Positions 36,748 through 53,096 of a stretch of DNA of 64,000 nucleotides are shown one piece after another (positions within the stretch are counted from its first letter, which is position 1; the number at the start of each line of letters is the position of its first letter). The DNA comes from Spirochaetota bacterium (GTDB lineage: Bacteria; Spirochaetota; Spirochaetia; Treponematales; UBA12059): NCBI GenBank assembly GCA_029547205.1, contig JAKPPT010000072.1:186001-250000 (forward strand). Reading direction: 5' to 3'. Both the position numbers and the translations under genes were made by a program. Under the pieces are notes generated by a model. It was not told where the DNA came from. It searched no databases and saw nothing but the letters and a program-made list of their open reading frames with translations.

Positions 36748-38415
36748 ATGTCCGATTCAAAAGAATTACAGGCAATGTTATCTGCATATGATGCAGAAGT
36801 TGAAAAATCACTTGCAAAATATCCTGAACGCAAAAAGCAATTTACAACAGGTTCCAATGCTCCAATTAAACGTTTATATACTCCAGTGGATATTGAAAAT
36901 TTAGACTATGCACGCGATCTTGGAGTGCCAGGTTCGTATCCATTTACACGCGGTGTTCAGAATACCATGTATCGCGGTAAGTTCTGGACGATGAGGCAGT
37001 ATGCCGGTTTTTCAACTGCAGAGGAATCTAACAAACGGTATAAGTATCTCTTAGAGCAGGGTACAACCGGTCTCTCTGTGGCCTTCGATCTTCCTACACA
37101 AATTGGTTACGATTCCGATCATCCGCTATCACAGGGTGAAGTTGGTAAAGTTGGTGTTGCGATTGACAGCCTTGCGGATATGGAAGTTCTCTTCGATGGA
37201 ATTCCGCTCGATAAAGTCTCAACATCAATGACAATCAATGCCCCTGCATCAGTACTGCTGGCAATGTATATTGCTGTTGCAGAGAAACAGGGAGTCTCTC
37301 CAGACAAGCTCAATGGTACAATCCAAAATGATATTCTTAAAGAATATGTTGCTCGCGGTACCTATATTTTCCCTCCAGAACCATCAATGCGGCTCATTAC
37401 AAATATCTTTGAGTACTGCTCAAAACATGTACCTAACTGGAATACAATTTCTATTTCCGGTTACCATATACGGGAAGCTGGCGCAACTGCTGCACAGGAA
37501 GTAGCATTTACACTGGCTGATGGCATTGCATATGTCGATGCTGCTATAAAAGCCGGTCTTGATGTCGATGAATTTGCCCCGCGTCTCTCTTTCTTCTTCA
37601 ATGCTCATAATGATCTTTTTGAAGAAGTAGCAAAATTTAGAGCAGCTCGACGGCTCTGGGCAAAAATCATGAAGGAACGGTTCAAGGCAAAAAATCCCAA
37701 AAGCTGGATGCTCCGATTCCATACTCAAACTGGCGGTTCAACACTTACTGCACAGCAGCCTGATAATAATATTGTTCGTGTTGCCATACAGGCACTAGCA
37801 GCTGTACTGGGTGGAACCCAATCGCTCCATACGAATTCACGTGATGAAGCACTTGCACTTCCTACAGAAGAATCTGTACGAATTGCGCTCCGCACACAGC
37901 AGATTATTGCATATGAATCAGGTGTAACAGAAACAATTGATCCGCTTGCAGGTTCTTACTATGTGGAAAGTCTTACCAATCGCATTGAAGATGAAGCTGC
38001 AGCATACATTCAAAAAATTGATGATCTCGGCGGCGCTGTAAAGGCAATTGAACAAGGATACATACAGCAAGAGATTCAGGATTCAGCATACGCATACCAG
38101 ATGGATGTTGAATCAAAAAATCGTGTTGTAGTTGGTATGAATATGTTCCAGATCGAAGAAGCTCCACCTAAGGGACTTCTCAAGGTTGATCCTAGTGTTG
38201 GTGAACGGCAGACAGCTAGACTTAAAGAACTCAAGAGTAAGCGTAATAATGATAGTGTTACAGCATCGCTTGCAGCATTAGAAAAAGCAGCAAAGGGTAC
38301 TGACAATCTCATGCCATTTATTCTTGATGCTGTAAAATCATATGCTACATTAGGTGAAATTTGCGATACGCTCCGGTCGGTATTTGGTGAATACCAGCAA
38401 AAAGTAATTCTTTAA
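36748..38415 (+). CDS. Methylmalonyl-CoA mutase, large (catalytic) subunit
   Basis: 555 residues, TIM-barrel subunit that interconverts succinyl-CoA and methylmalonyl-CoA with adenosylcobalamin. Blocks: [20 protein letters not shown] (contains the substrate tyrosine), [52 protein letters not shown] and [18 protein letters not shown]. The B12 domain is a separate protein (next gene), as in archaeal-type enzymes. The block near residue 250 reads [10 protein letters not shown] rather than HMQEAGA of the classical enzyme. A GAGGGGG site precedes the ATG. Confidence 0.93.
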
Positions 38416-38432
38416 GCATAAGGAGTTTGAAA

Positions 38433-38837
38433 ATGGCTAGAAAAATAAAGGTGTTAGTTGCAAAACCAGGTCTTGATGGTCATGACCGGGGAGCTAAGGT
38501 AATTGCACGTGCACTTCGTGATGCAGGAATGGAAGTGATTTATACAGGCCTCAGGCAGACTCCTGAACAGATTGTACAAACAGCGTTACAGGAAGATGTT
38601 GATGTAGTAGCAATGAGCATTCTATCCGGAGCACATAACCACCTTTTCCCCCGTGTGATGGAGCTCATGCGCCAGAATAAGCTTGATGATGTACTCGTTA
38701 TTGGCGGAGGGGTAATTCCCGAAGATGATATCCCTGGTCTAAAAGCTGCTGGAATTGCTGCAATATTTACTCCTGGTACTCCAACCAGTACAACAATCGA
38801 GTTTATTAAAGCAAATCTCAAACGTTCACTAGAATAG
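38433..38837 (+). CDS. Methylmalonyl-CoA mutase, cobalamin-binding subunit
   Basis: 134 residues. [20 protein letters not shown] contains the DxHxxG motif whose histidine ligates cobalt; [12 protein letters not shown] and [12 protein letters not shown] complete the B12 site. ATG 38433 is preferred (AAGGAG with 7-base spacing) over an in-frame TTG at 38427. It pairs with the large subunit immediately upstream. Confidence 0.93.
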
Positions 38838-38855
38838 TTGAAAGAATAGCTTGAT

Positions 38856-39929
38856 ATGGATGCAGTATCTGATAGCACAATTCAAGAAATTCTCAATGGC
38901 AACATGCGCACTATTGCAAGGCTCATTTCGTTAGTAGAACGAAATGCAAAAGAGCGAATTGAACTGATCAAAAAACTGCATCAATATTCAGGAAAAGCTC
39001 ATGTGCTTGGTATAACAGGTCCTCCTGGAGCAGGTAAGAGTACTGTAACCGACAAGCTTATTGGCGAATTTCGGAAACGGAATAAACGTGTAGCGGTCAT
39101 TGCAGTAGATCCATCAAGTCCCTTTACTGGAGGCGCTATCCTCGGTGATCGAATTCGCATGATGAATCATGCAACCGATCCCGATGTCTTTATCCGTAGT
39201 CTCGCTTCAAGGGGGCATCTTGGCGGTTTAGCGCAAGCATGTGGAGAAACGCTTCGTATACTCGATGCTGCTCAGTATGACATAATCATTATCGAGACCG
39301 TTGGTGTAGGGCAGAGTGAAGTTGAAATTGTACGGTATGCAGATACGATAGTGCTTGTAACGGTACCTGGCTTGGGTGATGACATTCAGGCAATCAAGGC
39401 TGGAATCATGGAAATTGGCGATATTTTCTGTGTTAACAAAGCTGATAAAGATGGAACCGAAAGAACCGTTCGTGAAATACGAGCCATGCTTGAAACTGCA
39501 ATCCTCAACAATGCACCCACACGATTTACCGAACTCTATGCCAGCTATTACAAAAATCATCAATCTGATAGTGCTGTTCAGCATTCATTTGCCGGCCATC
39601 ATGGTATTACAAATCTCCCAGGTCATGAGCTTCCTATACCTCTTCCTCCTGTTATTGCTACCGTTGCAGAAACTGGTAAAAACATACAGGAACTTGCTGA
39701 TGCTATTATACTGCATGGTACCATGCTCAAGGAAACAGGATTACTCGAACAGCGGAGAAATGAAAATTTACTCTGGGAAATCGAAAACATGGTACTGGAT
39801 ATGGTAACTGAAAAAATTAATTCAAGCGAATCACGAAATCAGCTTGAAAAGCTCGTTGCATCGGTTCAGTTACGAAAACTTGATACCTTTGAAGCTAGTA
39901 GAAAACTTTTTGAATATTTATTACACTAA
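38856..39929 (+). CDS. meaB: MeaB-type GTPase, mutase chaperone
   Basis: 357 residues. P-loop GITGPPGAGKSTVTDKL (near residue 50), VIAVDPSSPFTGGAILGDRI, VETVGVGQSEVEIV-type (IETVGVGQSEVEIV) and the guanine specificity NKAD. MeaB protects and reloads methylmalonyl-CoA mutase with adenosylcobalamin using GTP. Located 18 bases after the B12 subunit, exactly where its client is. Confidence 0.93.
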   Translation: MDAVSDSTIQEILNGNMRTIARLISLVERNAKERIELIKKLHQYSGKAHVLGITGPPGAGKSTVTDKLIGEFRKRNKRVAVIAVDPSSPFTGGAILGDRIRMMNHATDPDVFIRSLASRGHLGGLAQACGETLRILDAAQYDIIIIETVGVGQSEVEIVRYADTIVLVTVPGLGDDIQAIKAGIMEIGDIFCVNKADKDGTERTVREIRAMLETAILNNAPTRFTELYASYYKNHQSDSAVQHSFAGHHGITNLPGHELPIPLPPVIATVAETGKNIQELADAIILHGTMLKETGLLEQRRNENLLWEIENMVLDMVTEKINSSESRNQLEKLVASVQLRKLDTFEASRKLFEYLLH

Positions 39930-39959
39930 GCTGATACAATTTTACAAATGGAGGAATCT

Positions 39960-40361
39960 ATGACATCAAAAATTGATCATATTGGTATTGCTGTAGCCAA
40001 CCTTGATGAAGCGCTCAAGCTATATACCGAAGTCTTAGGGCTCACGGTTCATGGAACAGAAACAGTGGAAGAACAGAAAGTAAAAGTTGCATTTCTTCCT
40101 ATCGGTGACACAGAAGTAGAATTACTCGAATCTACAGATCCAGAAGGACCAATTGCAAAATTCATAGAAGCAAAGGGCCAGGGCATTCAGCATATTGCCT
40201 TTCGTGTCTCAAACATAGAAGAAGCACTTGAAGCGATGAAGGCAAAAGGTATACGCCGTATTGACGAGAAACCACGATATGGCGCAGGTGGTGCTAAAAT
40301 TGCTTTTTTACATCCAAAATCGACAAATGGTGTTCTCATAGAATTATGCGAACGAAATTAA
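39960..40361 (+). CDS. mce: Methylmalonyl-CoA epimerase
   Basis: 133 residues, vicinal-oxygen-chelate fold: [40 protein letters not shown], and GIQHIAFRV, with HxxxA and C-terminal LIELCE supplying metal ligands. It converts (R)- and (S)-methylmalonyl-CoA. GGAGG with 5-base spacing picks ATG 39960 over ATG 39948. Confidence 0.93.
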
Positions 40362-40391
40362 TACAGCAAGTAGTATTATGGAGTTACAGGT

Positions 40392-41936
40392 ATGGAAGAA
40401 AAACTTAAACAATTAGCGGGCAAACGAGAAAAAATTCTTGCAGGAGGCGGCCCGAAACGTGTCGCTGCCCAGCATGAAAAGGGCAAAATGACAGCACGGG
40501 AACGAATTGAAGCCTTCCTCGATCCAGGCTCTTTTACTGAACTTGATACGTTTGTTGAGCACCGGGCAACAGACCTCGGTATGGATGCAGTTGAAGCACC
40601 AGGCGAAGGTGTTGTTACAGGTTATGGGACTGTCTTTGGACGTACGGTTACCGTATTTGCTCAGGATTTCACGGTAGTTGGTGGTTCACTTGGTGAAATG
40701 CATGCTGCAAAAATCTGTAAAGTAATGGACCTCGCTATGAAATTGGGATGCCCCTGTATTGGAATCAATGATTCAGGCGGCGCACGTATCCAAGAAGGTG
40801 TAGATGCCCTCAAAGGATATGGTGAAATTTTTTATCGAAACACACTTGCCTCGGGCGTAATACCACAAATTTCAATCATCATGGGTCCTTGCGCTGGTGG
40901 TGCAGTGTATTCACCGGCTTTAACAGATTTCACCGTGATGGTGGATAAAACTGCAAATATGTTTATTACAGGTCCTCAAGTAATCAAGGCTGTTACAAGG
41001 GAAGATGTCAGCGCAGAAGCTCTCGGTGGAGCGCTCGTACACAGTGAAGTTTCTGGTTGTGCAAGTCTCATGTTTTCCAATGAGCAGGAGACTTTTCAGG
41101 CAGTCCGCAAACTCTTATCCTATCTGCCTCAAAACAATCTTGAAGAACCTCCGGTAGCTGCAACACAGGATGCAGTAAACAAACGAATCCAGGGACTTGC
41201 CGATCTCATACCCGATTCTCCCAATAAACCGTATGACATGCGTGACATTATTCGAAATGTTTTTGATGATGGGGATTTTTTTGAGATTCAGCCGCTCTAC
41301 GCCCAGAATATCATTACCTGTTTTGCACGTATTGGTGGAAAAACAGTAGGAATCATAGCGAATCAACCTAAAATCATGGCTGGTGTGCTGGACATCAATG
41401 CTTCTGATAAGGCTGCACGGTTTATTAGGTTTTGTGATGCTTTCAATATTCCTCTCATTACGTTTACTGATACATCGGGATACTTGCCTGGTGTAGGGCA
41501 GGAACATGGTGGTGTTATTCGTCACGGTGCTAAACTTCTCTATGCCTACTCTGAAGCAACTGTTCCCAAAATTACTGTAATTGTACGAAAAGTATATGGT
41601 GGCGCATATATTGCTATGTGCTCGCGCCATCTTGGTGCAGACATTGTGTTTGCATGGCCAAGCGCAGAGATTGCTGTAATGGGGCCCGATGGAGCTGCAA
41701 ATATTATCTTCAAAAAGGAAATCGAAGAATCACAAGCACCTGAAGAAACACGAAAACAAAAAATTGAAGAGTATAAAGCAAATTTTGCAAATCCCTATAA
41801 GGCAGCTATGCGTGGCTATGTTGATGATGTTATTGATCCAGCTGATACGAGAATCAAACTTGCAAATGCTTTGTCCGTACTAGCTTCAAAACGTGAATCT
41901 CGTCCTGAAAAGAAACATGGCAATATGCCGGTATAA
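40392..41936 (+). CDS. mmdA: Methylmalonyl-CoA decarboxylase/carboxyltransferase alpha subunit (12S type)
   Basis: 514 residues with two crotonase-like carboxyltransferase halves: KMTARERIEAFLDPGSFTEL, INDSGGARIQEGVDALKGYG, IMGPCAGGAVYSPALTDF, VTREDVSAEALGGALVHS, and in the second half TDTSGYLPGVGQEHGG, GGAYIAMCSRHLGAD. It transfers CO2 from methylmalonyl-CoA to biotin (reverse in carboxylases). With an OadB-like pump and no biotin carboxylase nearby, decarboxylation to propionyl-CoA is the likely direction. Confidence 0.93.
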   Translation: MEEKLKQLAGKREKILAGGGPKRVAAQHEKGKMTARERIEAFLDPGSFTELDTFVEHRATDLGMDAVEAPGEGVVTGYGTVFGRTVTVFAQDFTVVGGSLGEMHAAKICKVMDLAMKLGCPCIGINDSGGARIQEGVDALKGYGEIFYRNTLASGVIPQISIIMGPCAGGAVYSPALTDFTVMVDKTANMFITGPQVIKAVTREDVSAEALGGALVHSEVSGCASLMFSNEQETFQAVRKLLSYLPQNNLEEPPVAATQDAVNKRIQGLADLIPDSPNKPYDMRDIIRNVFDDGDFFEIQPLYAQNIITCFARIGGKTVGIIANQPKIMAGVLDINASDKAARFIRFCDAFNIPLITFTDTSGYLPGVGQEHGGVIRHGAKLLYAYSEATVPKITVIVRKVYGGAYIAMCSRHLGADIVFAWPSAEIAVMGPDGAANIIFKKEIEESQAPEETRKQKIEEYKANFANPYKAAMRGYVDDVIDPADTRIKLANALSVLASKRESRPEKKHGNMPV

Positions 41937-41947
41937 AAGGAGTTCAC

Positions 41948-42268
41948 ATGATATCAGCCTGGACAGTTTTAATAATTGGGATAGGTACAGTTTTTTTAGG
42001 ATTAATTTTTATAATTGTACTGATTGTACTATTACGATCGCTGCTATCACCTAAAAAAGTCCGCTCAGCAGAATCTTCACAAGCAGTAAAGACAAATAGT
42101 ACAGAAATTTCCAGTGAACTAGTTGCAGTCATTAGCGCAGCAATTGCAGCAATGATGAATACTTCTGTGCATAATATTTATATTGCAAGCATCCAAAAAG
42201 CAGATACTCCAGCATGGGCGCTTGCTGAACGTTTTTCGCGAAAATCAAAGGGCACGTTATTGCGATAA
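41948..42268 (+). CDS. OadG-like small subunit of the sodium-pumping decarboxylase
   Basis: 106 residues. One N-terminal membrane segment (residues ~4-30), then a polar linker, then SSELVAVISAAIAAMMN, which resembles the C-terminal block of OadG/MmdD gamma/delta subunits that tether the complex. AAGGAG precedes the ATG by 7 bases. It lies between mmdA and the biotin carrier. Confidence 0.82.
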   Translation: MISAWTVLIIGIGTVFLGLIFIIVLIVLLRSLLSPKKVRSAESSQAVKTNSTEISSELVAVISAAIAAMMNTSVHNIYIASIQKADTPAWALAERFSRKSKGTLLR

Positions 42269-42302
42269 GATTATAACACTTTACAATCTTAAGGAGAATA
42301 CA

Positions 42303-42674
42303 ATGAACAAAAAATTTAAGGTTACAGTTAATGGTCAAACATACGATGTTGTTGTTGAAGAAATTGGTGGTATGCCACAAGCTCCATCAGCTGCTGTCCA
42401 AACTGCTACCGTAGCTGCTGCAACCGTATCGCCAGCAGCGCCAGTAGAGGGGAGTGCAGGACCCGGATCAATCAAGGCACCAATGCCAGGAACGATTCTT
42501 GCTGTTAAAGTAACAAAAGGTCAGTCGGTTAAGCGCGGTGATGTACTGTGCATTCTCGAAGCAATGAAAATGGAGAATGAAATTACTGCTCCAAATGATG
42601 GTGTAGTTGAGCATATTCGTGTCCAAGCAGGTACCACTGTTAATACTGGTGATCCGCTCATTGATCTCGCATAG
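42303..42674 (+). CDS. Biotin carboxyl carrier protein
   Basis: 123 residues from ATG 42303 (AAGGAG upstream). N-terminal short domain, Ala/Pro-rich linker, then the lipoyl-like domain [16 protein letters not shown]...[10 protein letters not shown], with the biotinylated lysine at about residue 89. It should serve both MmdA and the 5S-like carboxyltransferase, because neither has its own biotin domain. Confidence 0.94.
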
Positions 42675-42682
42675 AGGATTCT

Positions 42683-43852
42683 ATGATAGATAAAATTATT
42701 GATTTTATTAATTCATCGGGATTTGCTGGTTTCTTCAACAGCACAATGATGATTTCGATATTTGGTCTACAAATACCTGGAGAGCTTATCATGCTCTTTG
42801 TTGCATGTTTGCTCTTATATCTTGGTATTGTAAAAAAGTTTGAACCGCTCCTACTTATTCCCATTGCGTTTGGTATGCTTCTTGTTAACCTTCCTTTAAG
42901 TCCTATTTTTTTGGAAGGAAAAAATGGAGAACCCGGCGGATTAATCTATTACCTTTACTATGGTGTAAAATTAGGAATTTACCCTCCACTCATATTTCTT
43001 GGTGTTGGGGCAATGACAGATTTCGGTCCGCTCATTGCTGACCCCAAGAGTTTACTGTTGGGTGCTGCTGCACAATTCGGAATTTTCATACCGTTTATAG
43101 TAGCTCACTATATAGGTTTTGATCTTAAGTCTTCTGCCTGTATAGGAATAATTGGCGGTGCTGATGGTCCAACTGCAATTTACCTGACTAGTAAGCTCAA
43201 CTCAGATTTACTAGGTCCAATTTCTATAGCAGCATATTCCTATATGGCTCTCGTTCCAATTATTCAACCTCCAATTATGAAATTGCTCACAACAAAAAAG
43301 GAGCGCATGATTGTTATGCAGCAGCTGCGGGAAGTTAGTAAAGCAGAAAAAATAGTTTTTCCAATTGCAGTAACCATTCTTGTTGGTCTCATTGTTCCCA
43401 GTGCCATCCCGCTTATTGGTGCACTCATGCTTGGTAATCTCTTTAGAGAATCGGGAGTTACTGGACGGTTATCTGATACTGCACAAAATGCACTCATCAA
43501 CATACTCACCATATTTTTAGGTACATCTATTGGAGCAACAGCTACTGCAGCAAAATTCTTACAACCGCAAACACTCATGATTATAGGCTTAGGCCTTTTT
43601 GCTTTTGCTTGTGGAACTGCCATGGGTGTTATTTTTGGCAAAATTATGAATTGGATTTCAGGCGGAAAAATTAATCCGCTTATAGGTTCAGCTGGTGTTT
43701 CTGCAGTTCCAATGGCAGCTCGTGTATCACAAGTTGTCGGACAAAAGGAAAATCCGTCGAATTATCTTTTAATGCATGCGATGGGACCAAACGTTGCCGG
43801 TGTAATCGGCAGTGCCGTCGCTGCTGGTGTCATGTTGAGTTTGTTAGGATAA
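42683..43852 (+). CDS. Sodium-pump beta subunit (OadB/MmdB-like)
   Basis: 389 residues, polytopic inner-membrane carboxybiotin decarboxylase that exports Na+. Diagnostic blocks: [53 protein letters not shown], and [20 protein letters not shown] with [19 protein letters not shown]. The GGADGPT loop includes the conserved Asp essential for pumping in OadB. It starts 8 bases after the biotin carrier and closes the island before a terminator. Confidence 0.94.
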
Positions 43853-44484: not shown

Positions 44485-45459
44485 TTAATGCTGTATTATG
44501 GCATTAATCTGACTTCGCTGAAATTGGCAATACGTTTCTAAGTATTCGATTTGTGTTTCGAGTAATGGTGCAAATAGTACGTGAGGAAGTTCAGAAAAAA
44601 TCGTGTCAAAATTGACTATTTTCCACGCATGCAAAAAGTAATAAGGAATCTTTGCACATGAACCATATTTTTTGTCACCTGCTAACGGATGTCCATATGC
44701 ACTGCATTGTGCACGTATTTGATGCGTAAAGCCTGTTATTAATTGAATTTGGGCTAGTGTAAACTGTTCGTTTATGAGCAATGGCTGTATTTTGAGTAAC
44801 GCTTTACTGCATGATTTTGGTTTTTCAATGTGTACAGTAGTTATTTTTTTGAGTTTATCCCGCATTACATAGTGCTCTAATACAACTTCATGCTGTATAG
44901 TTCCTTCTAAAACAGCTAAATAATATTTCTCCAATTGTTTATCATGGAAAGCTTTTGAGCTTTTCTGAGCACCACTGAGCGATAGGGCGATTATTAGCAA
45001 ACCGGAGGTATTTCTATCAAGTCTGTGTACTGGAGCTGGAGTAAACGAAAGTGAATTATTTGGTAACATACTCTTAATAGTTTGAGCTATACTATGAGGA
45101 CCATGTACATCAATTGCACGTGGTTTATTAATTATCACTACATCAGGAGTGGTATATAAAAATGAAAGCGGAGCTGAACCAAAAGACTTTATTGTCACTA
45201 CGTTATCTAAATTCTTACATGTATATTTATTTATACCTTCAACAGGTAAAGGCTCAGTGAGTACTACTTCCAGTGTATCATTTTTTAAAACAATTGTATT
45301 TGTTTTACATTTTTTTCCATTGATTTTTATATTACCAGTGCGAATGAGCTTATAAATATAGCTCAAAGAATAAGTTGGAAATAACTTTCGGACAATCCGA
45401 TCTACTCTTCTTCCATTATCATTATCTCCAGCCAAAAATTTATATACATGCTTATTCAT
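44485..45459 (-). CDS. RluC/RluD-family pseudouridine synthase
   Basis: 324 residues. N-terminal S4 RNA-binding domain (RVDRIVRKLFPTYSLSYIYK) then the catalytic domain with HRLDRNTSGLLIIALS (Asp nucleophile near residue 145) and FTHQIRAQCSAYGHPLAGDKKYG. These enzymes modify uridines of 23S rRNA. Which sites are modified cannot be said. Starts divergently from the DUF212 gene, about 50 bases away. Confidence 0.92.
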   Translation of the reverse strand: MNKHVYKFLAGDNDNGRRVDRIVRKLFPTYSLSYIYKLIRTGNIKINGKKCKTNTIVLKNDTLEVVLTEPLPVEGINKYTCKNLDNVVTIKSFGSAPLSFLYTTPDVVIINKPRAIDVHGPHSIAQTIKSMLPNNSLSFTPAPVHRLDRNTSGLLIIALSLSGAQKSSKAFHDKQLEKYYLAVLEGTIQHEVVLEHYVMRDKLKKITTVHIEKPKSCSKALLKIQPLLINEQFTLAQIQLITGFTHQIRAQCSAYGHPLAGDKKYGSCAKIPYYFLHAWKIVNFDTIFSELPHVLFAPLLETQIEYLETYCQFQRSQINAIIQH

Positions 45460-45510
45460 TGTATGCTATACTTCCTATACTCTATACATTACCATAAATC
45501 AGGATTTTGT

Positions 45511-45996
45511 GTGTATCATATTTCGCGATTTTCATTAGACTTATTAAAATTACTCAGAAATCCAGTGTTTCAATCAGCCATTTTTAGCTGGTTTCTTGCT
45601 CAATTTGTTAAAACTTTTATTCGATTACTAAAAAAACCATTGCCACCTATCAAAGACATTATTGCTTTATTATTTTGGAAAACTGGTGGTATGCCATCGA
45701 GTCACAGTGCTCTAACGGTAAGTATAACTACTGCTTTTGCTATAATGCGGGGTATTACAAGCGATATTTTTATATTATCTTTTTTTGTCACTATGGTCAT
45801 TATACGTGATGCGCTTGGGGTTCGACGTGTCGCAGGGCTTCTGGCTAAAAGCTACAATATTTTTGCCAGTGATGTTACAAAAAAAATGAATGTACGGTAT
45901 ATCCCTGTAAAAGAAATTCATGGACATAAAGTACCTCAAGTCATTGTTGGTAGTTTGTTAGGATTATTTATTGCAATTGCGGTTTGTACATTATGA
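45511..45996 (+). CDS. DUF212 membrane protein (divergent PAP2-like, YuiD family)
   Basis: 161 residues from GTG 45511, with AGGA six bases upstream. Family blocks: NPVFQSAIFSWFLAQFVKTF, FWKTGGMPSSHSALTVSITT (the PSSHS motif shared with acid phosphatases), RDALGVRRVAG, and EIHGHKVPQVIVGSLLG. Four membrane segments. It may act on a lipid phosphate, but activity is unproven. Its stop overlaps the next start (ATGA), so it heads the Rnf-like operon. Confidence 0.83.
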   Translation: MYHISRFSLDLLKLLRNPVFQSAIFSWFLAQFVKTFIRLLKKPLPPIKDIIALLFWKTGGMPSSHSALTVSITTAFAIMRGITSDIFILSFFVTMVIIRDALGVRRVAGLLAKSYNIFASDVTKKMNVRYIPVKEIHGHKVPQVIVGSLLGLFIAIAVCTL

Positions 45997-47372
45997 CAGT
46001 ATCAAAAACAAATACCATAAAAAAATTACTAAATAAAAAAGTTTCTGTATTGTTGATACTGCCATTATTTATTTTATTTATTTCCACACTGCTACAATTC
46101 TTTACTGCAACGAAAGTGACGAGTGCATACGTAGTAAATTTTACGACTGAATCACAGGCACTAGAATTTTGTAAACAATTTCCAAATAATCAAGAACTCA
46201 TAACACCTTACAATTTAGAAATACCAATTTCAAATTTTCATGAAATTACAGCAGATACGCTCGATCATATTCGTAAACGTTTAATCGATAATGATTTACG
46301 GAGCACAACTTTACTCAAAAAACTAATGGATTTTTTTTATTTATCCGCAAATGAGAATCAATTCTCAATACGGTTATATGCAAAGACTAAAATAGCTGAC
46401 AGGTTACTACGTAACAAACTCCAAAAAGAACAAATACATTTTTCTAAAATACCCATACATACTACTAGCAGCAATAACTGGATTGTTATTTTCCTTTTTA
46501 TTGTTGCAGGTATCATTATAATAAATATACAATCATCTTATAGTAAAAAACTTGTCACTATTTTATTTTTCCCATGGTTTATTTTCATGTTTATTTCTTC
46601 ATCGGCGATTTTTACTTACTCAGTACTCATTTTATTGCTTACATCAATGAATAGTATTGTTCTTTACTATGATAAAATAATAGTAAAGAATAAATTACAT
46701 TTGTTCCCATTTCTGGAACTGATTCTTGGAATAATCCTTTCTTTTGCTCTAATTGTTACTTCATGGGAATTAATCATATATTATTCAGTGTGTATGTTGA
46801 GTACATATGCTCTCTATACACTCGAAAATCGTGCACAAAAGAAAAAGGAGCACCGGATCCCTTTTTTTGTAAAAATTGTTCCTGAACAACCTCGATGGTT
46901 ACTATATAACAAAGTTGTGGTATTAACTACGGGATTAATTCTAATAGCATTTTCAAATTTGTTCTCCAACAATCATGCTCTTATTTCGTTATCAGAACAT
47001 GACTATGATATGCACATACAAAAGCAATATTTGAGTATATATGGTTCTATTTATAATGCTCCGTCAAAACCAAGTATTAGTGTCAGTAATGATACGCTTC
47101 AGCTTATTTATTCAGACCCCTTGGATGATGCAAACACAAAGAATAAGAATAGAGAAAACATTGGTTTCAATCAATATTTTACACAGCTAAGTAGTTCGCA
47201 GCCATTACTCAATGCATATTCATTACTTCTATTTGGAATTATTTGTATATGTATACTGTTAGATGTTCTTTTTAGTGCTGGTAAAAAAATCCAAAAATTG
47301 ATATATTTCAAAAACTCTGTTAAGAAATTGCCAGATGGCATAACTATTACAATTACGGATGCTAGCATATGA
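45993..47372 (+). CDS. Unknown membrane protein of the Rnf-like operon
   Basis: 459 residues, no family recognised. Membrane segment at residues ~17-37, then a periplasmic domain of about 125 residues (AYVVNFTTESQALEFCKQF), then about six membrane segments (residues ~165-290), a second outer domain (~330-410) and a last membrane segment (LLLFGIICICILLDVLF). No cofactor motif is seen. It overlaps DUF212 and rnfC by 4 bases on each side, so it belongs to the same transcript and probably the same complex. Possible stand-in for a lost subunit. Confidence 0.75.
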   Translation: MTVSKTNTIKKLLNKKVSVLLILPLFILFISTLLQFFTATKVTSAYVVNFTTESQALEFCKQFPNNQELITPYNLEIPISNFHEITADTLDHIRKRLIDNDLRSTTLLKKLMDFFYLSANENQFSIRLYAKTKIADRLLRNKLQKEQIHFSKIPIHTTSSNNWIVIFLFIVAGIIIINIQSSYSKKLVTILFFPWFIFMFISSSAIFTYSVLILLLTSMNSIVLYYDKIIVKNKLHLFPFLELILGIILSFALIVTSWELIIYYSVCMLSTYALYTLENRAQKKKEHRIPFFVKIVPEQPRWLLYNKVVVLTTGLILIAFSNLFSNNHALISLSEHDYDMHIQKQYLSIYGSIYNAPSKPSISVSNDTLQLIYSDPLDDANTKNKNRENIGFNQYFTQLSSSQPLLNAYSLLLFGIICICILLDVLFSAGKKIQKLIYFKNSVKKLPDGITITITDASI

Positions 47373-48652
47373 AATATACTGTACCTTCATTTCATGGTGG
47401 TATTGAAATAAAAAAAGAAACCAATAGCACTAGTGCAGAAATAATTCAAACATATATTCCTAATTATGCACTACTTGTACTGAAAACATATGAAAACCAA
47501 CCTGATTTTAGAATTGTAGTATATGAGGGACAAGAAATTGCAGAAGGGCAGGTTGTTGCACAGAGTAATACTGGATATAAAATTCATGCACCAATACCGT
47601 GTGTATTGCATAAAATTGTCCAGGTTGTTACACCTATGGGATACATTTCCCAGGCACTTGTTATTAAACTGAGCGGTTACTTTACTCTATCACTTAATAG
47701 CTCTGAACGTTACCACTGGCGATCATTAAATAGTAACGATATACGCTTTCTTTTAAATGAAAAGGGTGTTATTTGTTCCATTTCAGGGAAACCTTTGACT
47801 GAAGAATTAGCCCAAAATTCATCTGCTGATATTCTTGTAATCAATACACTTATTCAAGATATGAATTGTCACGGTGAAAATCTATTATTTGAAAATACAA
47901 AAACTAAAATTCTCGAAGCTGCTGCAATCTTGCATAAAATTTTTAATTTTTCATCTATAATTATTGCAACACATTTTGAATATGAATTTACTAATACTGA
48001 AATAAAAATTATTGAAGAGCTAAAAATACCAATTAATTTTCGATTGTTCCCTCTAAAATACCCGCAAGCTGATAATCACTTAATCGAAAAAACTTTATTA
48101 AAAACGTATCCAAAAAACGAAGCTCATAAAATATTAACACTAGAAACAAGAACGCTGATTGCAGTATATGATGCAGTAGTTAAAAATAAACCTTTTATTG
48201 AACAATATGTTTTTGTTGGCGGAAACTGTCTTAAAACTTCAGCATTATTAAAAGCAAAAATTGGAACGCCTATTGGATCGCTAATTGAAGAACTTGGCGG
48301 TTTTATCATGAAACCAGATATTATTGCAATAAATAATGTACTGAAAGGTCAAAAAACACTTGATCTGGATACACCAGTCACAAAAAATATGCATGCTATT
48401 ATTGCATTGAATAATACACTCTGGCAGCATCAATCATCTTCAATCTGTACAACATGTGGTACCTGTATTGATGTATGTCCCTGCTTATGTAATCCAATGG
48501 AAATGTATAAAAATCAAATGTATAATATACAATTCAAAAACACTAGAAAGTACTTTGAAAAATGTATTGCATGCGGGCTATGCACATATGTATGTCCTGG
48601 TTATATAAAACTACAAGATTTATTTTTAAAAGCAAAGCGAGATTTATTATGA
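47369..48652 (+). CDS. rnfC: RnfC-like subunit with altered flavin/nucleotide loop
   Basis: 427 residues. Opens MKYTVPSFHGGIEIKKETN (RnfC-type FHGGI) and has IYEGQxVAEGQVVAQ-like biotinyl-lipoyl fold sequence, a Rossmann-like middle, and two C-terminal 4Fe-4S motifs, CTTCGTCIDVCPCLCNP and CIACGLCTYVCPGYI. In normal RnfC and NuoF the block GIVGxGGAGFPTxxK binds FMN and NADH; here the same position (residues ~130-145) reads KGVICSISGKPLTEEL, without the glycine cluster. So electron entry from NADH looks lost while the ferredoxin-like clusters stay. Overlaps both neighbours by 4 bases. Confidence 0.85.
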   Translation: MKYTVPSFHGGIEIKKETNSTSAEIIQTYIPNYALLVLKTYENQPDFRIVVYEGQEIAEGQVVAQSNTGYKIHAPIPCVLHKIVQVVTPMGYISQALVIKLSGYFTLSLNSSERYHWRSLNSNDIRFLLNEKGVICSISGKPLTEELAQNSSADILVINTLIQDMNCHGENLLFENTKTKILEAAAILHKIFNFSSIIIATHFEYEFTNTEIKIIEELKIPINFRLFPLKYPQADNHLIEKTLLKTYPKNEAHKILTLETRTLIAVYDAVVKNKPFIEQYVFVGGNCLKTSALLKAKIGTPIGSLIEELGGFIMKPDIIAINNVLKGQKTLDLDTPVTKNMHAIIALNNTLWQHQSSSICTTCGTCIDVCPCLCNPMEMYKNQMYNIQFKNTRKYFEKCIACGLCTYVCPGYIKLQDLFLKAKRDLL

Positions 48653-49728
48653 TTCAACCAGTTTCAGCACCTTTTGTACACCATTGGAATACAGCGAAAT
48701 TTAATGAAAGGATTTTAAGTATCATATTATTACTTGTAATAGTGTGGGCAACATGTATTCATGGTTTTAACGTTTTACTTATTTGTCTTTTCGGTTTTTT
48801 GGGTGCTACAATAGCATGGCTGATTAGAAAATATTTATTCAAAACTACAGGCACACCACTTGAATATATGATTCCTGGATTATTGTTAGTATTGATTTTC
48901 CCAATAACCATACCTTTGTTTATTCCATTTATTACCATGTTTTTTACTTACTTTATTTTTTTTATAGTTTTTGGAGGAAAAGAAAATAATTATTTGAATA
49001 TTCCTGCATTTGGAGCCTTATTTGCTTATATGGCATGGCCAGGGTATTTTACATATTTTTTCAACAATACTGAAAAATTAGTAGATGGTATTACAAAAGC
49101 ATCATCGATTTCAATTCTGAAATCGTACGCAACTAATCATGCTATACAAAAAAGCAGCTTTATTTTATTACAGGAAGCAGGTGTTTCGATATCATCAATT
49201 GACAAATCAATTACAGATTTTCTTAATACTGTTTTTTTTAATGAATTTAATAGTAGTCTTCCGTATGGATTTTTTGATTTTTTGTTTGGGTTTAAGAGCA
49301 TAACAATTATTGAATCAGGAATATTCATTCTTTTTATCGGTTTGATTATTCTATTTGCAATTTCATATTATAAATATATTACTGCTTTTACTGCAGCTTT
49401 TATTTATCTATTGCTTGTATGGATATTTGGAATAGGTCTTAATAACGAAGAACTGTTTCATGGAGATATTTTATTTTCAATGGTAAATTTTGGCACAATG
49501 ATTGCTTTGTTTTATTACAATGTTTTCCCGGAAAACAATTGTGTTAAAAAAATAAGTCAAATAATTTTAGGAATTATTACTGGATTTTTTTCATATATAT
49601 GTCTACGGTTTATTAAATCTACCGAAGGCATGTTTCTAGTGTTGTGTTCAATTAATATTCTGGTTATTTTCGCAAAGAACTTCCAGATAACTACTACATC
49701 AGAACAGAGGACTATGTCAAATGAATAA
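48649..49728 (+). CDS. rnfD: RnfD-like membrane subunit with degenerate flavin site
   Basis: 359 residues with eight to nine membrane segments. Recognisable RnfD/NqrB blocks: N-terminal SAPFVHHW (canonical SSPH region), NIPAFGALFAYMAWPGYFT (FNPA region) and the C-terminal HGDILFSMVNFGTMIALFYY. The flavin-attachment motif SGAT appears as DGITKASSISIL, keeping Asp, Thr and Ser but with Lys for Gly; the ATDPVTSP block is replaced by FYYNVFPEN. Covalent FMN is therefore doubtful. Start ATG 48649 overlaps rnfC stop. Confidence 0.8.
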   Translation: MIQPVSAPFVHHWNTAKFNERILSIILLLVIVWATCIHGFNVLLICLFGFLGATIAWLIRKYLFKTTGTPLEYMIPGLLLVLIFPITIPLFIPFITMFFTYFIFFIVFGGKENNYLNIPAFGALFAYMAWPGYFTYFFNNTEKLVDGITKASSISILKSYATNHAIQKSSFILLQEAGVSISSIDKSITDFLNTVFFNEFNSSLPYGFFDFLFGFKSITIIESGIFILFIGLIILFAISYYKYITAFTAAFIYLLLVWIFGIGLNNEELFHGDILFSMVNFGTMIALFYYNVFPENNCVKKISQIILGIITGFFSYICLRFIKSTEGMFLVLCSINILVIFAKNFQITTTSEQRTMSNE

Positions 49729-50086
49729 AAACATACTGTTTTTTTTATTCATGGCAATTTTATTGTTATTTTCGATATATTTTACATATTTTAGTGAACA
49801 TTTTTCTAAAAAAACAGTAATATTAGAAAATAATTTAGATTCTTCTTTTCAGATTACTCCCTATGATCCGTTTTCCTATTCAACTTTCCTTAATTTGACC
49901 AATACAAGTAGTGATACAATGATTTTATTCTCAAAAGATTATCAGAGCGGAATATTGTTTTTTAAAAAGAATTATAAGCTTGAGAACATATATGTATTGC
50001 ATAATATGGCAACTTTTTTTGTTGATTCTATTGATATAAATGTATTAAAAACTGAACAAAGCCAGCTCTATAAACTAATTAAATAA
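49721..50086 (+). CDS. Short RnfG-position protein without flavin motif
   Basis: 121 residues, one N-terminal membrane segment (residues ~5-24) and a small outer domain. It occupies the rnfG position between rnfD and rnfE but is about 60% of normal RnfG length. Where RnfG would have D(A/S)(I/V)(S/T)GATxTS, the closest stretch reads VDSIDINVLKTEQS, with the SGAT core missing. Identity as RnfG rests on position, topology and this weak trace only. Overlaps rnfD by 8 bases. Confidence 0.55.
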   Translation: MNKNILFFLFMAILLLFSIYFTYFSEHFSKKTVILENNLDSSFQITPYDPFSYSTFLNLTNTSSDTMILFSKDYQSGILFFKKNYKLENIYVLHNMATFFVDSIDINVLKTEQSQLYKLIK

Positions 50087-50099
50087 TGGAGAAATTGCA

Positions 50100-50705
50100 A
50101 TGTTGAATGAAAATAGTGTTAACCATAATAGATATAATCAAATTGATAAACTGGTAATTTTTAATTTACCATTATTTATTCTTTCATCACATATTATACT
50201 GGCTTTAATTTTTTCTGCTGTTTTTATACTCAGCTTTTTATGCTTGTTTCTTATTTCGCATATGATAAATCGAGCGAATACAAATCAATTCTTATTCTTT
50301 AGTGCTAAATTACTCATTCTCTCAGCTTTAAATGCAATTATTCAGTCTGTGATTTTAATAATTGACCCTTATCTTTACACTTTATATTCTATGCATATCT
50401 CATTTATTCAATTTTTACCATTTTTGTTAGAATTAGCAACACAAGATGAAATTTGGTCTCATAGTAATGAAATAGTAATAAAGACTATTATTCTACCTGT
50501 ACTGTCAATACTATTTGCCTTTTTTCGAGAAAGTATTACATATGGAACAATTGAATTTACTGTAAAAAATTACCAAACACTCAAACCGGTCACTTTTTAT
50601 GCTGGGTTTTCTCCGTGGTTTGCCTTTCTCTGTATTGCATTTAGTCTAATTTTGATTAATGTAGCTAGAACAAAATTAGGTGGAAAGAGAGGCTCTCATG
50701 ATTAA
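50100..50705 (+). CDS. rnfE: RnfE-like membrane subunit lacking the cysteine motifs
   Basis: 201 residues with about six membrane segments. Its place before the rnfA homologue and its topology fit RnfE/NqrD. Canonical RnfE has GLCP in helix 1 and a second NC-type cysteine motif in helix 4, which hold a membrane-buried iron centre; the matching places here read NLPLFILSSH and MHISFIQFLPFL, with no cysteine. GGAG precedes the ATG by 8 bases. Its end overlaps rnfA. Confidence 0.65.
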   Translation: MLNENSVNHNRYNQIDKLVIFNLPLFILSSHIILALIFSAVFILSFLCLFLISHMINRANTNQFLFFSAKLLILSALNAIIQSVILIIDPYLYTLYSMHISFIQFLPFLLELATQDEIWSHSNEIVIKTIILPVLSILFAFFRESITYGTIEFTVKNYQTLKPVTFYAGFSPWFAFLCIAFSLILINVARTKLGGKRGSHD

Positions 50706-51246
50706 TATTAGTATGATCGCTGAGCTTTTTCATTTTAATCCCTTATTATTTTTTGGATTATATTTCACGTTACCTGTAGCAATTTTGAAAAAGAATAGTA
50801 TTAGGCTTTTAATTATGTCGAGTATTATCTCATGTATTATGAACATTTTCTGGATTTATATTGCTATCCCGCTTAATGTGAGGCCATTGTATATAGTTGT
50901 CTTTGTTATTATATATCTTCTCGTTAAATTTTTATCAGATAAATTAGATTTTTCAGAGGGACAGACAAAACAAGAATATTTAATTTTTGAAATACCTTTT
51001 TTATTTATACTATCTGCCTTATCATTACAAACAACACTTCAATCATTCTTACTAATTTTTATTTCGATTATTGGTAATATTGTGCTATACCTTTTACTAT
51101 TTATATTAACAGAAAAAATGGTAGCTATTTTCAGCACTTCAAAAATTGAAATATCAGCATATGGACTGCCGATCCGCCTAATCGTTATTGCGTTTTGGTG
51201 CATGCTTTTTATTAATTTTGGAAATATTTTATTGAATATTCCATAA
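50698..51246 (+). CDS. rnfA: RnfA-like membrane subunit lacking the cysteine motifs
   Basis: 182 residues, six membrane segments. Alignable with RnfA by pattern: FNPLLFFGLYFTLPVAILKK corresponds to LxRFLGICPFLGVSKK, YLIFEIPFLFILSALSL to YLPLITTNCAVLGVAL, and SAYGLPIRLIVIAFWCMLFI to the closing FKGxPIALITAGLMSLAF block. Both conserved cysteines are replaced (Thr/Tyr region and Glu-Ile). Start ATG 50698 with AGAGAGG upstream, overlapping rnfE by 8 bases. Last gene of the operon; no rnfB follows. Confidence 0.7.
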   Translation: MINISMIAELFHFNPLLFFGLYFTLPVAILKKNSIRLLIMSSIISCIMNIFWIYIAIPLNVRPLYIVVFVIIYLLVKFLSDKLDFSEGQTKQEYLIFEIPFLFILSALSLQTTLQSFLLIFISIIGNIVLYLLLFILTEKMVAIFSTSKIEISAYGLPIRLIVIAFWCMLFINFGNILLNIP

Positions 51247-51287: not shown

Positions 51288-53096
51288 ATGCACACCCATA
51301 AAATATTACTTATCTGTTATAATCATCTCCCAGAACATGTTTCAGTTTCTGAATTTGAAGAAAAGTATCAGTACTGTTATAGACCGTTTCTTTCTGTTTT
51401 AAATAAATTCCCGGAAATACCTGTTTCCCTTTATTTTTCTGGAACACTCTTAAAAATGCTAGAATTAAAACATCCGGAATTTCTTTTACTACTCAATGAA
51501 ATGATTTCAAAAAAACAGGTCGAATTGTTAGGTGGCGCATTTAATTATTCAATTCTGCCATTGCAAACAAATCATGAGCGGATTGCAACATCTGAAATGC
51601 TAACAAATTATATACGAAAAAAATTTAGTAAACGGCCTCGAGGGTTTTTACTCCCTGAATTTTTGTGGTCAAATTCTCTTATTGCAACATTAGTTAATGC
51701 TGGTTTTGAGTATACATTTATTGAACAAACAAAATCTGATTATTGTGAAATACAAAATCCGTTATGTTTTACTGAAGAAAATTATAAGCCACTTAAAATA
51801 TTTAGAACAGTGAATGCATCAAATTTTGACAATTTGCTTCCAAATGAAATCATTATGCAAATTGATGAGGTGTCAAAACATTCACATGAATTGCATTCAT
51901 ATAGCATTGCTATAAAAGGAGAATCTTTCAAAGATTTATGTATTACAAGAAAGTTTGAATCTCCAGATTATATGATGGAAAAATTATTTTCCTGGTTTCG
52001 AAAAAATATTTTAGAATACGAGCCTATTTTGCCATCAAAATTTAATAAGCTTTATGGTAATGCAATATCAAGAACATACTTTAAAGATTATTTCCCTGAA
52101 TCTCTCACAACCGTATTTAGCACACTAAAGGCCAATAATAAGAATAAAAAAGCTTTTCCAGAATTATTTGTTGAAATAAAAGAATTAGAAAATTACTATG
52201 CTAAAATAAATTTTGTAAGATTATTGCTTAAAAATGAGATACGAGGCGATAAAGAGCGTAAACGTGCTGGTACTGATATGCTTTCGTTTGCATTTGGTTC
52301 AGATATGTTTAATACGAAAATAGGATTTATTAATCGCGAATGCAGAAAAAAAGCATGGTATTTTCTCATAGAAGCAGAAAAATGCACTAATGGGAAAAAG
52401 CATGCAAAGTCGCTTATTCTTGAACAGGATTATAACCTTGACAATCTTCCTGAAATAATAATTAGATATAAAACCTATGACTGCATTCTTAATCCGCATG
52501 CTGGAACAGTAACTGAATTTGATTATTTCCCGCTATCATACAATATCTGCAGCATTATTGTTCCAGTAGGTGATCGAGCAGAGCTGTTTGAGGATTACTT
52601 ACACACAGGCGCTACAGCAAAAAGTATCACTTATGCTCAGCATACAATTGATCATGAACGTACACTAATCAGACTGTATGCAATAACTGAAATGCTGCAA
52701 ATAGAAAAGATCATATGTTTTACCGCATCATCAATTCTAATTGATTACCAATTTACTAATACTACCGAAAAAGAGTTATCATGTACATTTAAAACAGTAC
52801 TCAATCTCGCTATTGATTTTGAATTGGCTGATATTGAATCGGAAGATATAAATAAGAAAGACGAGACTCTTTCAAAAGATTTTTGCAAAAAGGCAATTAG
52901 TGCTGTAAAGAATCAAGAAATACTGTTACCGTTTTCATGTGGTTCTTCAATTCCATGCGTTTTTAAAACATATCCAATACTATATCAAGTTGATAAAAAA
53001 GAGTTATATCGACAGGGAACTAAACTTGAATGTGACTGGACACTATCAATTAAAGCCCAAAATCAGATAACGGTACATTTTGCTTTTCTATTTTAA
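51288..53096 (+). CDS. GH57-family-like protein with altered active site
   Basis: 602 residues. Overall layout matches GH57 4-alpha-glucanotransferases/amylases: N-terminal catalytic-like domain, central DUF1925-like and C-terminal DUF1926-like domains (ILNPHAGTVTEFDYFPLSYN). The nucleophile region is RPRGFLLPEFLWSNSL (Glu kept). The acid/base block DDGEKFG reads AIKGESFKDL, so the catalytic Asp is gone, and the N-terminal HQPxGN block reads YNHLPEHV. The W-H of the DUF1925 block is SFAFG. Likely a carbohydrate-binding or inactive member. GGGAG upstream of the ATG. Confidence 0.72.
   Translation: MHTHKILLICYNHLPEHVSVSEFEEKYQYCYRPFLSVLNKFPEIPVSLYFSGTLLKMLELKHPEFLLLLNEMISKKQVELLGGAFNYSILPLQTNHERIATSEMLTNYIRKKFSKRPRGFLLPEFLWSNSLIATLVNAGFEYTFIEQTKSDYCEIQNPLCFTEENYKPLKIFRTVNASNFDNLLPNEIIMQIDEVSKHSHELHSYSIAIKGESFKDLCITRKFESPDYMMEKLFSWFRKNILEYEPILPSKFNKLYGNAISRTYFKDYFPESLTTVFSTLKANNKNKKAFPELFVEIKELENYYAKINFVRLLLKNEIRGDKERKRAGTDMLSFAFGSDMFNTKIGFINRECRKKAWYFLIEAEKCTNGKKHAKSLILEQDYNLDNLPEIIIRYKTYDCILNPHAGTVTEFDYFPLSYNICSIIVPVGDRAELFEDYLHTGATAKSITYAQHTIDHERTLIRLYAITEMLQIEKIICFTASSILIDYQFTNTTEKELSCTFKTVLNLAIDFELADIESEDINKKDETLSKDFCKKAISAVKNQEILLPFSCGSSIPCVFKTYPILYQVDKKELYRQGTKLECDWTLSIKAQNQITVHFAFLF

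Follow-up and report, generated by a model that had tools for sequence, protein, structure and literature searches.

Genomic Context of P459

The window is the whole stretch of spirochaete DNA that was analysed and is 64,000 nucleotides long. Gene P459 lies on the plus strand at 45993 to 47372 and encodes a polytopic membrane protein of 459 amino acids, with an ATG start and a TGA stop. A TTG at 45984 is an alternative start that would give 462 amino acids. Stop codons occur throughout the strand opposite the ORF. P459 overlaps the preceding DUF212 gene (end at 45996) and the following rnfC gene (start at 47369) by 4 bases each, as stated in the preliminary description. Its own genome contains a single copy.

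The neighbouring genes are all on the plus strand. The DUF212 (divergent PAP2) gene is located at 45448 to 45996 (Pfam, 4.1e-34). Downstream of P459 are genes encoding an RnfC-like protein (47369 to 48652; TIGR01945, 8.6e-51), an RnfD-like protein (48649 to 49728; Pfam NQR2_RnfD_RnfE, 2.2e-26) and a 121-amino-acid protein with one transmembrane helix (TM) which, by comparison with relatives, occupies the RnfG position (49721 to 50086). These are followed by RnfE-like (50100 to 50705) and RnfA-like (50698 to 51246; start in the ORF list GTG at 50680) genes, both identified by iterated profile. A GH57 family gene (51288 to 53096; Pfam, 4.3e-23) comes after the operon, and a GH57 gene was found in this position, behind RnfA or RnfB, in all 44 readable P459 loci. 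No RNA families were found in the region, and promoter-like sites were no more frequent there than in shuffled sequences. Further upstream, at 36748 to 43852, genes were named by sequence reading as methylmalonyl-CoA mutase, a cobalamin-binding subunit, a MeaB-like GTPase, an epimerase, a carboxyltransferase, a biotin carrier and a decarboxylase beta-like membrane protein. This suggests a sodium-pumping propionate pathway.

Cofactor residues were aligned for all Rnf subunits, with the ligand roles taken from PMC9588780. The RnfC-like protein retains both CxxCxxCxxxCP iron-sulfur (Fe-S) motifs, whereas its glycine-rich FMN/NADH loop and ECEPY motif are gone. Its eight Fe-S cysteines are invariant among 31 aligned relatives. 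The flavin-attachment motif of the RnfD-like protein is degenerate (VDGITKASSIS compared to SDATTTATPLT in the canonical copy) and the [ST]GA[TS] flavinylation motif is absent from the protein in the RnfG position. Both iron-ligand cysteines are replaced in the RnfE-like protein (by L and P) and in the RnfA-like protein (by T and Y). The altered cofactor sites reported in the preliminary description were therefore confirmed by alignment, except that RnfC keeps all eight of its Fe-S cysteines. The same description gave RnfB as missing. This is true of the window operon but not of the genome, as another contig (C149; L083, 1887 to 6891) carries a canonical rnfCDGEAB operon whose cofactor sites are intact.

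Identification and Distribution of the P459 Family

A PDB sequence search and Pfam and NCBIfam scans gave no match to P459, and a profile search of the PDB yielded nothing beyond membrane proteins at chance level, for example cytochrome b (E 0.028). When 59 relatives were scanned individually they had no Pfam or NCBIfam family in common, in agreement with the earlier view that the protein fits no known family. A single-sequence search of 59 related genomes with P459 returned three weak matches, compared to matches in 59 of 59 with RnfC as the query. By this measure P459 is fast-evolving. A hydrophobic protein of 365 to 539 amino acids precedes rnfC in all but two of the relatives' loci with sufficient upstream sequence. 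A family profile was built from 81 such syntenic proteins with the window P459 left out. This leave-one-out profile matched the window P459 at 4.4e-29 (94 bits), with the runner-up among the window ORFs at 0.012. Across 247 Spirochaetota genomes the profile matched 55, comprising 54 within the class of the window and one marginal match outside it. No match was found in the 12 non-spirochaete rnf loci checked or in certain families of the class that have rnfC (f13).

The gene order in the RnfC loci of the 59 relatives was DUF212-P459-RnfC-RnfD-small protein-RnfE-RnfA-GH57. The collection was scanned for RnfC using a subset of the alignment. A P459 homologue was found directly 5' of rnfC in 60 of the 63 spirochaete loci with sufficient upstream sequence, five further loci being too short to judge. 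The coupling to rnfC proposed earlier thus extends well beyond the window, which makes an unrelated household gene less likely. P459 is encoded within the rnf operon, as the subunits of the Rnf complex are. Of 57 P459 loci, 41 had DUF212 immediately 5' of P459, an arrangement also seen in the Borreliaceae described below. The linkage of P459 to rnfC held also where DUF212 was not adjacent.

P459 was absent from three readable loci (L106, L107 and L128). In one further genome (G176) the order was DUF212-P459-GH57 with no intervening rnf genes (L171, 6289 to 10407), and the sole RnfC match of that genome was elsewhere (C1:634427). Together with Treponema pallidum, these exceptions indicate that P459 and rnf are not strictly interdependent. 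The dN/dS of P459 in five species pairs was 0.10 to 0.39. The P459 family is thus real, undescribed, under selection and linked to rnf in spirochaetes.

Predicted Structure of P459

Modelled with AF2, the window protein had a pLDDT of 66. The model consisted of TM1, an outer alpha/beta domain at residues 44 to 155 (pLDDT about 90), six helices extending to residue 323, an outer stretch of poor model quality at approximately 335 to 400 and a last TM. The second outer domain as a whole is put at about 325 to 405. The model of a relative (L126) was better (pLDDT 83, pTM 0.83), particularly in the second outer domain, and showed TM1, an outer domain at 40 to 137, six TM, an outer domain at 333 to 456 and TM8. 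The two models bear out the approximately eight membrane segments and two sizeable outer domains described earlier. Conserved residues mapped to the outer domains (D97, F111, Y120, H376, Q380 and W424 in L126) and to one cytoplasmic loop (H290 and F293), with none in the membrane helices. This distribution is more in keeping with docking surfaces than with a path for transport.

A structure search had been proposed as a check. Foldseek with the window model gave no usable match, and RND proteins led the VIA results at Z 7 to 7.8, values which were not trusted alone. With L126 the top rows of Foldseek and VIA were nearly all RND proteins, but as evidence for the fold of one RND half (TM1, porter domain and TM2 to TM6) the scores (VIA Z up to 9.3, rmsd 4.5 to 7.5, Foldseek E 0.014 at best) were in a range that common arrangements also reach. 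Profile comparison gave no support for homology. The hhalign probabilities of P459 against spirochaete MMPL, SecD and SecF were 0.3 to 1.7%, compared to 97.7% for SecF-SecD and 93.9% for SecD-MMPL as positive controls. No RND Pfam family matched any of 59 P459 members. Approximately eight TM were present in both models, not the two-fold repeat of 12 TM found in RND proteins, and the core of TM4 had no conserved residue and hence no conserved charge for a proton relay. Membership of the RND superfamily is therefore not supported, and the modelled fold of P459 is best described as RND-like in layout.

RnfB and the History of the Operon

The order P459-rnfC-D-G-E-A-rnfB was found in 20 loci. Most of them have intact cofactor residues, namely the FMN/NADH loop of RnfC, the flavin motifs of RnfD and RnfG and the cysteines of RnfA and RnfE. 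P459 itself has four cysteines, no CxxCxxC motif and no NCBIfam match to RnfB. RnfB has Fe-S cysteine motifs and a single TM anchor, features that P459 does not share, and cysteines are few and variable across the P459 family. The suggestion that P459 might explain the altered cofactor sites was not supported, and the proposed check showed that P459 does not always occur with cofactor-less rnf genes, since it is found beside RnfB in 20 operons and most of these, the older state according to the RnfC tree, have their sites intact.

All RnfC sequences linked to P459, from the rnfB-containing operons through to those of the window, Treponema and Borrelia, formed one clade in the RnfC tree (SH-aLRT 99), and the canonical RnfC of the window's own genome was outside it. 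The rnfB-containing rows were basal, with the window, Treponema and Borrelia nested, although the tree is a quick one with long branches (window 1.63, Borrelia stem 3.7) and the precise placements are unsure. This topology places P459 in the operon first, with RnfB and the cofactors lost later. P459 is older than these losses. It is present in both redox-complete and redox-depleted operons, and is probably ancestral to the operon in a large part of the class Spirochaetia.

Treponema pallidum and Borreliaceae

Genome G032 is T. pallidum or a very close relative. Its RnfD spans 174174, the position given for tp0151 (PMC7162541), and tp0151 has been named rnfD (PMC11371664). The only Rnf cluster of this genome is on the reverse strand (L084, 3989 to 10571). 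It retains rnfCDGEA and has lost P459, and no RnfB was found in a search of the genome. In alignments the cofactor residues of RnfD, RnfE and RnfA are missing and the Fe-S motifs of RnfC are kept.

The genomes of family f7 are probably Borreliaceae, an assignment based partly on gene content. They contain the cluster DUF212-P459-RnfC/RnfD fusion-RnfA-prfB (L165 to L168, for example 7053 to 12969 in L167). The P459 profile matched at 7.7e-31 in L167 and 1e-31 in L168. The fusion protein is 772 amino acids long and combines the front domains of RnfC with RnfD. The Fe-S domain is deleted, with no CxxCxxC motif, and RnfA is without its cysteines. RnfB, RnfE and RnfG were sought in the Borreliaceae and none was found. 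Borrelia is reported to live without iron. The dN/dS values were 0.117 to 0.135 for P459, 0.14 to 0.16 for the fusion and 0.13 to 0.15 for RnfA, close to the 0.12 of prfB, which indicates selection on this redox-free remnant of the kind seen for ordinary functional genes. P459 has thus outlived the redox chemistry of the complex. We take prfB of this cluster to be BB0074. A lipobox is present in the Borrelia P459 proteins, and gene order and lipobox suggest that P459 corresponds to BB0071. In Table 2 of PMC6516651, bb0071 is entered as a putative lipoprotein, and its transposon mutant is given as one that larval ticks did not yield. A literature search for the Borrelia or treponeme P459 found nothing naming it except this one table row.

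Discussion

The reading favored here, with a probability of roughly 0.6, is that P459 is an undescribed ancestral accessory subunit of the Rnf operon, acting on a core of RnfC, RnfD and RnfA and later taking on a non-redox job. P459 would be an inner-membrane subunit that docks on this membrane core, with the two conserved outer domains and the one cytoplasmic loop as its probable binding surfaces, and would carry no redox centre itself. In the window, the treponemes and the Borreliaceae, RnfB and most or all of the flavin and iron sites have been lost, with P459 and the core still under selection. The redox-depleted complex would most likely perform non-redox work, for example by using an ion gradient to drive work in the periplasm or by opening an ion path, and P459 may be its periplasm-facing part. 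The nature of this work is the least certain step. Retention of P459 where the redox parts of Rnf are gone, apparently including the Lyme disease bacteria, suggests a non-redox job that has not been described. More tentatively, and at somewhat less than even odds, the Rnf redox pump may have a descendant that shed its redox chemistry stepwise to become a non-redox membrane machine with P459 as its near-constant partner, reduced in Borreliaceae to P459, the fusion and RnfA.

A role in assembling or maturing the Rnf membrane core, comparable to that of NqrM or RseC in function and not in sequence, and in place of a stable subunit, is unlikely but deserves some weight. It would fit the position of P459 in the same operon, RnfD and RnfA might be inserted with the help of its conserved outer domains, and the core survives without P459 in T. 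pallidum. However, P459 is kept in Borrelia, where there is no cofactor insertion left, and in G176, where no rnf genes are adjacent, and its few and variable cysteines give no signature of metal delivery. Less probable again is that P459 works independently of Rnf, as an RND-like transporter or envelope protein encoded in the same operon, perhaps acting with DUF212 on lipids. RND proteins do head the structure comparisons, the layout is that of an RND protein cut after TM8, DUF212 adjoins in 41 of the 57 loci and the G176 copy has no neighbouring rnf genes. These points are countered by the absence of profile similarity to MMPL, SecD and SecF and of RND Pfam matches, by the number of TM and the uncharged TM4, and by the persistence of the rnfC linkage where DUF212 is elsewhere.

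The two remaining explanations are very improbable. That the window cluster including P459 is a decaying, non-functional relic would account for the lost cofactor sites and the long branches in the RnfC tree, but its ORFs are intact, its gene order is fixed across the order, the eight RnfC cysteines are invariant and the dN/dS of P459 is that of a gene under selection. The least probable is that P459 takes the place of RnfB in electron input and accounts for the altered cofactor sites. The absence of RnfB from the window operon and the overlap with rnfC speak for it. Against this, RnfB is present alongside P459 in 20 operons, the window P459 has no Fe-S motif, and P459 is kept in Borrelia where the Fe-S domain of RnfC is deleted.

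If the proposed reading is correct, a redox pump that converts energy has become a device without redox function in a single bacterial class, and because the intermediates are still alive the steps of this conversion are testable. Two pathogens, T. pallidum and Borrelia, are concerned. Borrelia would keep an unannotated, cofactor-free version of the Rnf complex, and a gene whose mutant was lost in ticks would have its first family context.

Comparison to known systems places P459 as follows. It resembles the RND superfamily (SecDF, MmpL, NPC1 and AcrB) in the succession of TM1, outer alpha/beta domain, TM2 to TM7, second outer domain and TM8, and differs in having 8 TM compared to 12, in lacking profile or Pfam similarity and in a TM4 with no conserved charge. 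A noncanonical RNF generating an ion gradient from flavodoxin has been proposed in T. pallidum (PMC7512555). The rnf cluster of T. pallidum belongs to the clade of P459 operons but is without P459, RnfB and the cofactor residues of RnfD, RnfE and RnfA. On the strength of the alignments, the missing RnfB and residues question this redox-pump model, though they do not disprove it. The known Rnf complex (RnfABCDGE, PMC9588780) has six subunits and no partner with 8 TM, and the window version differs further in lacking RnfB, the RnfG flavin motif, the iron cysteines of RnfA and RnfE and the FMN/NADH loop of RnfC. The neighbours of P459 are nevertheless homologues of RnfC, RnfD, RnfE and RnfA in the canonical order, accompanied in some operons by RnfB.
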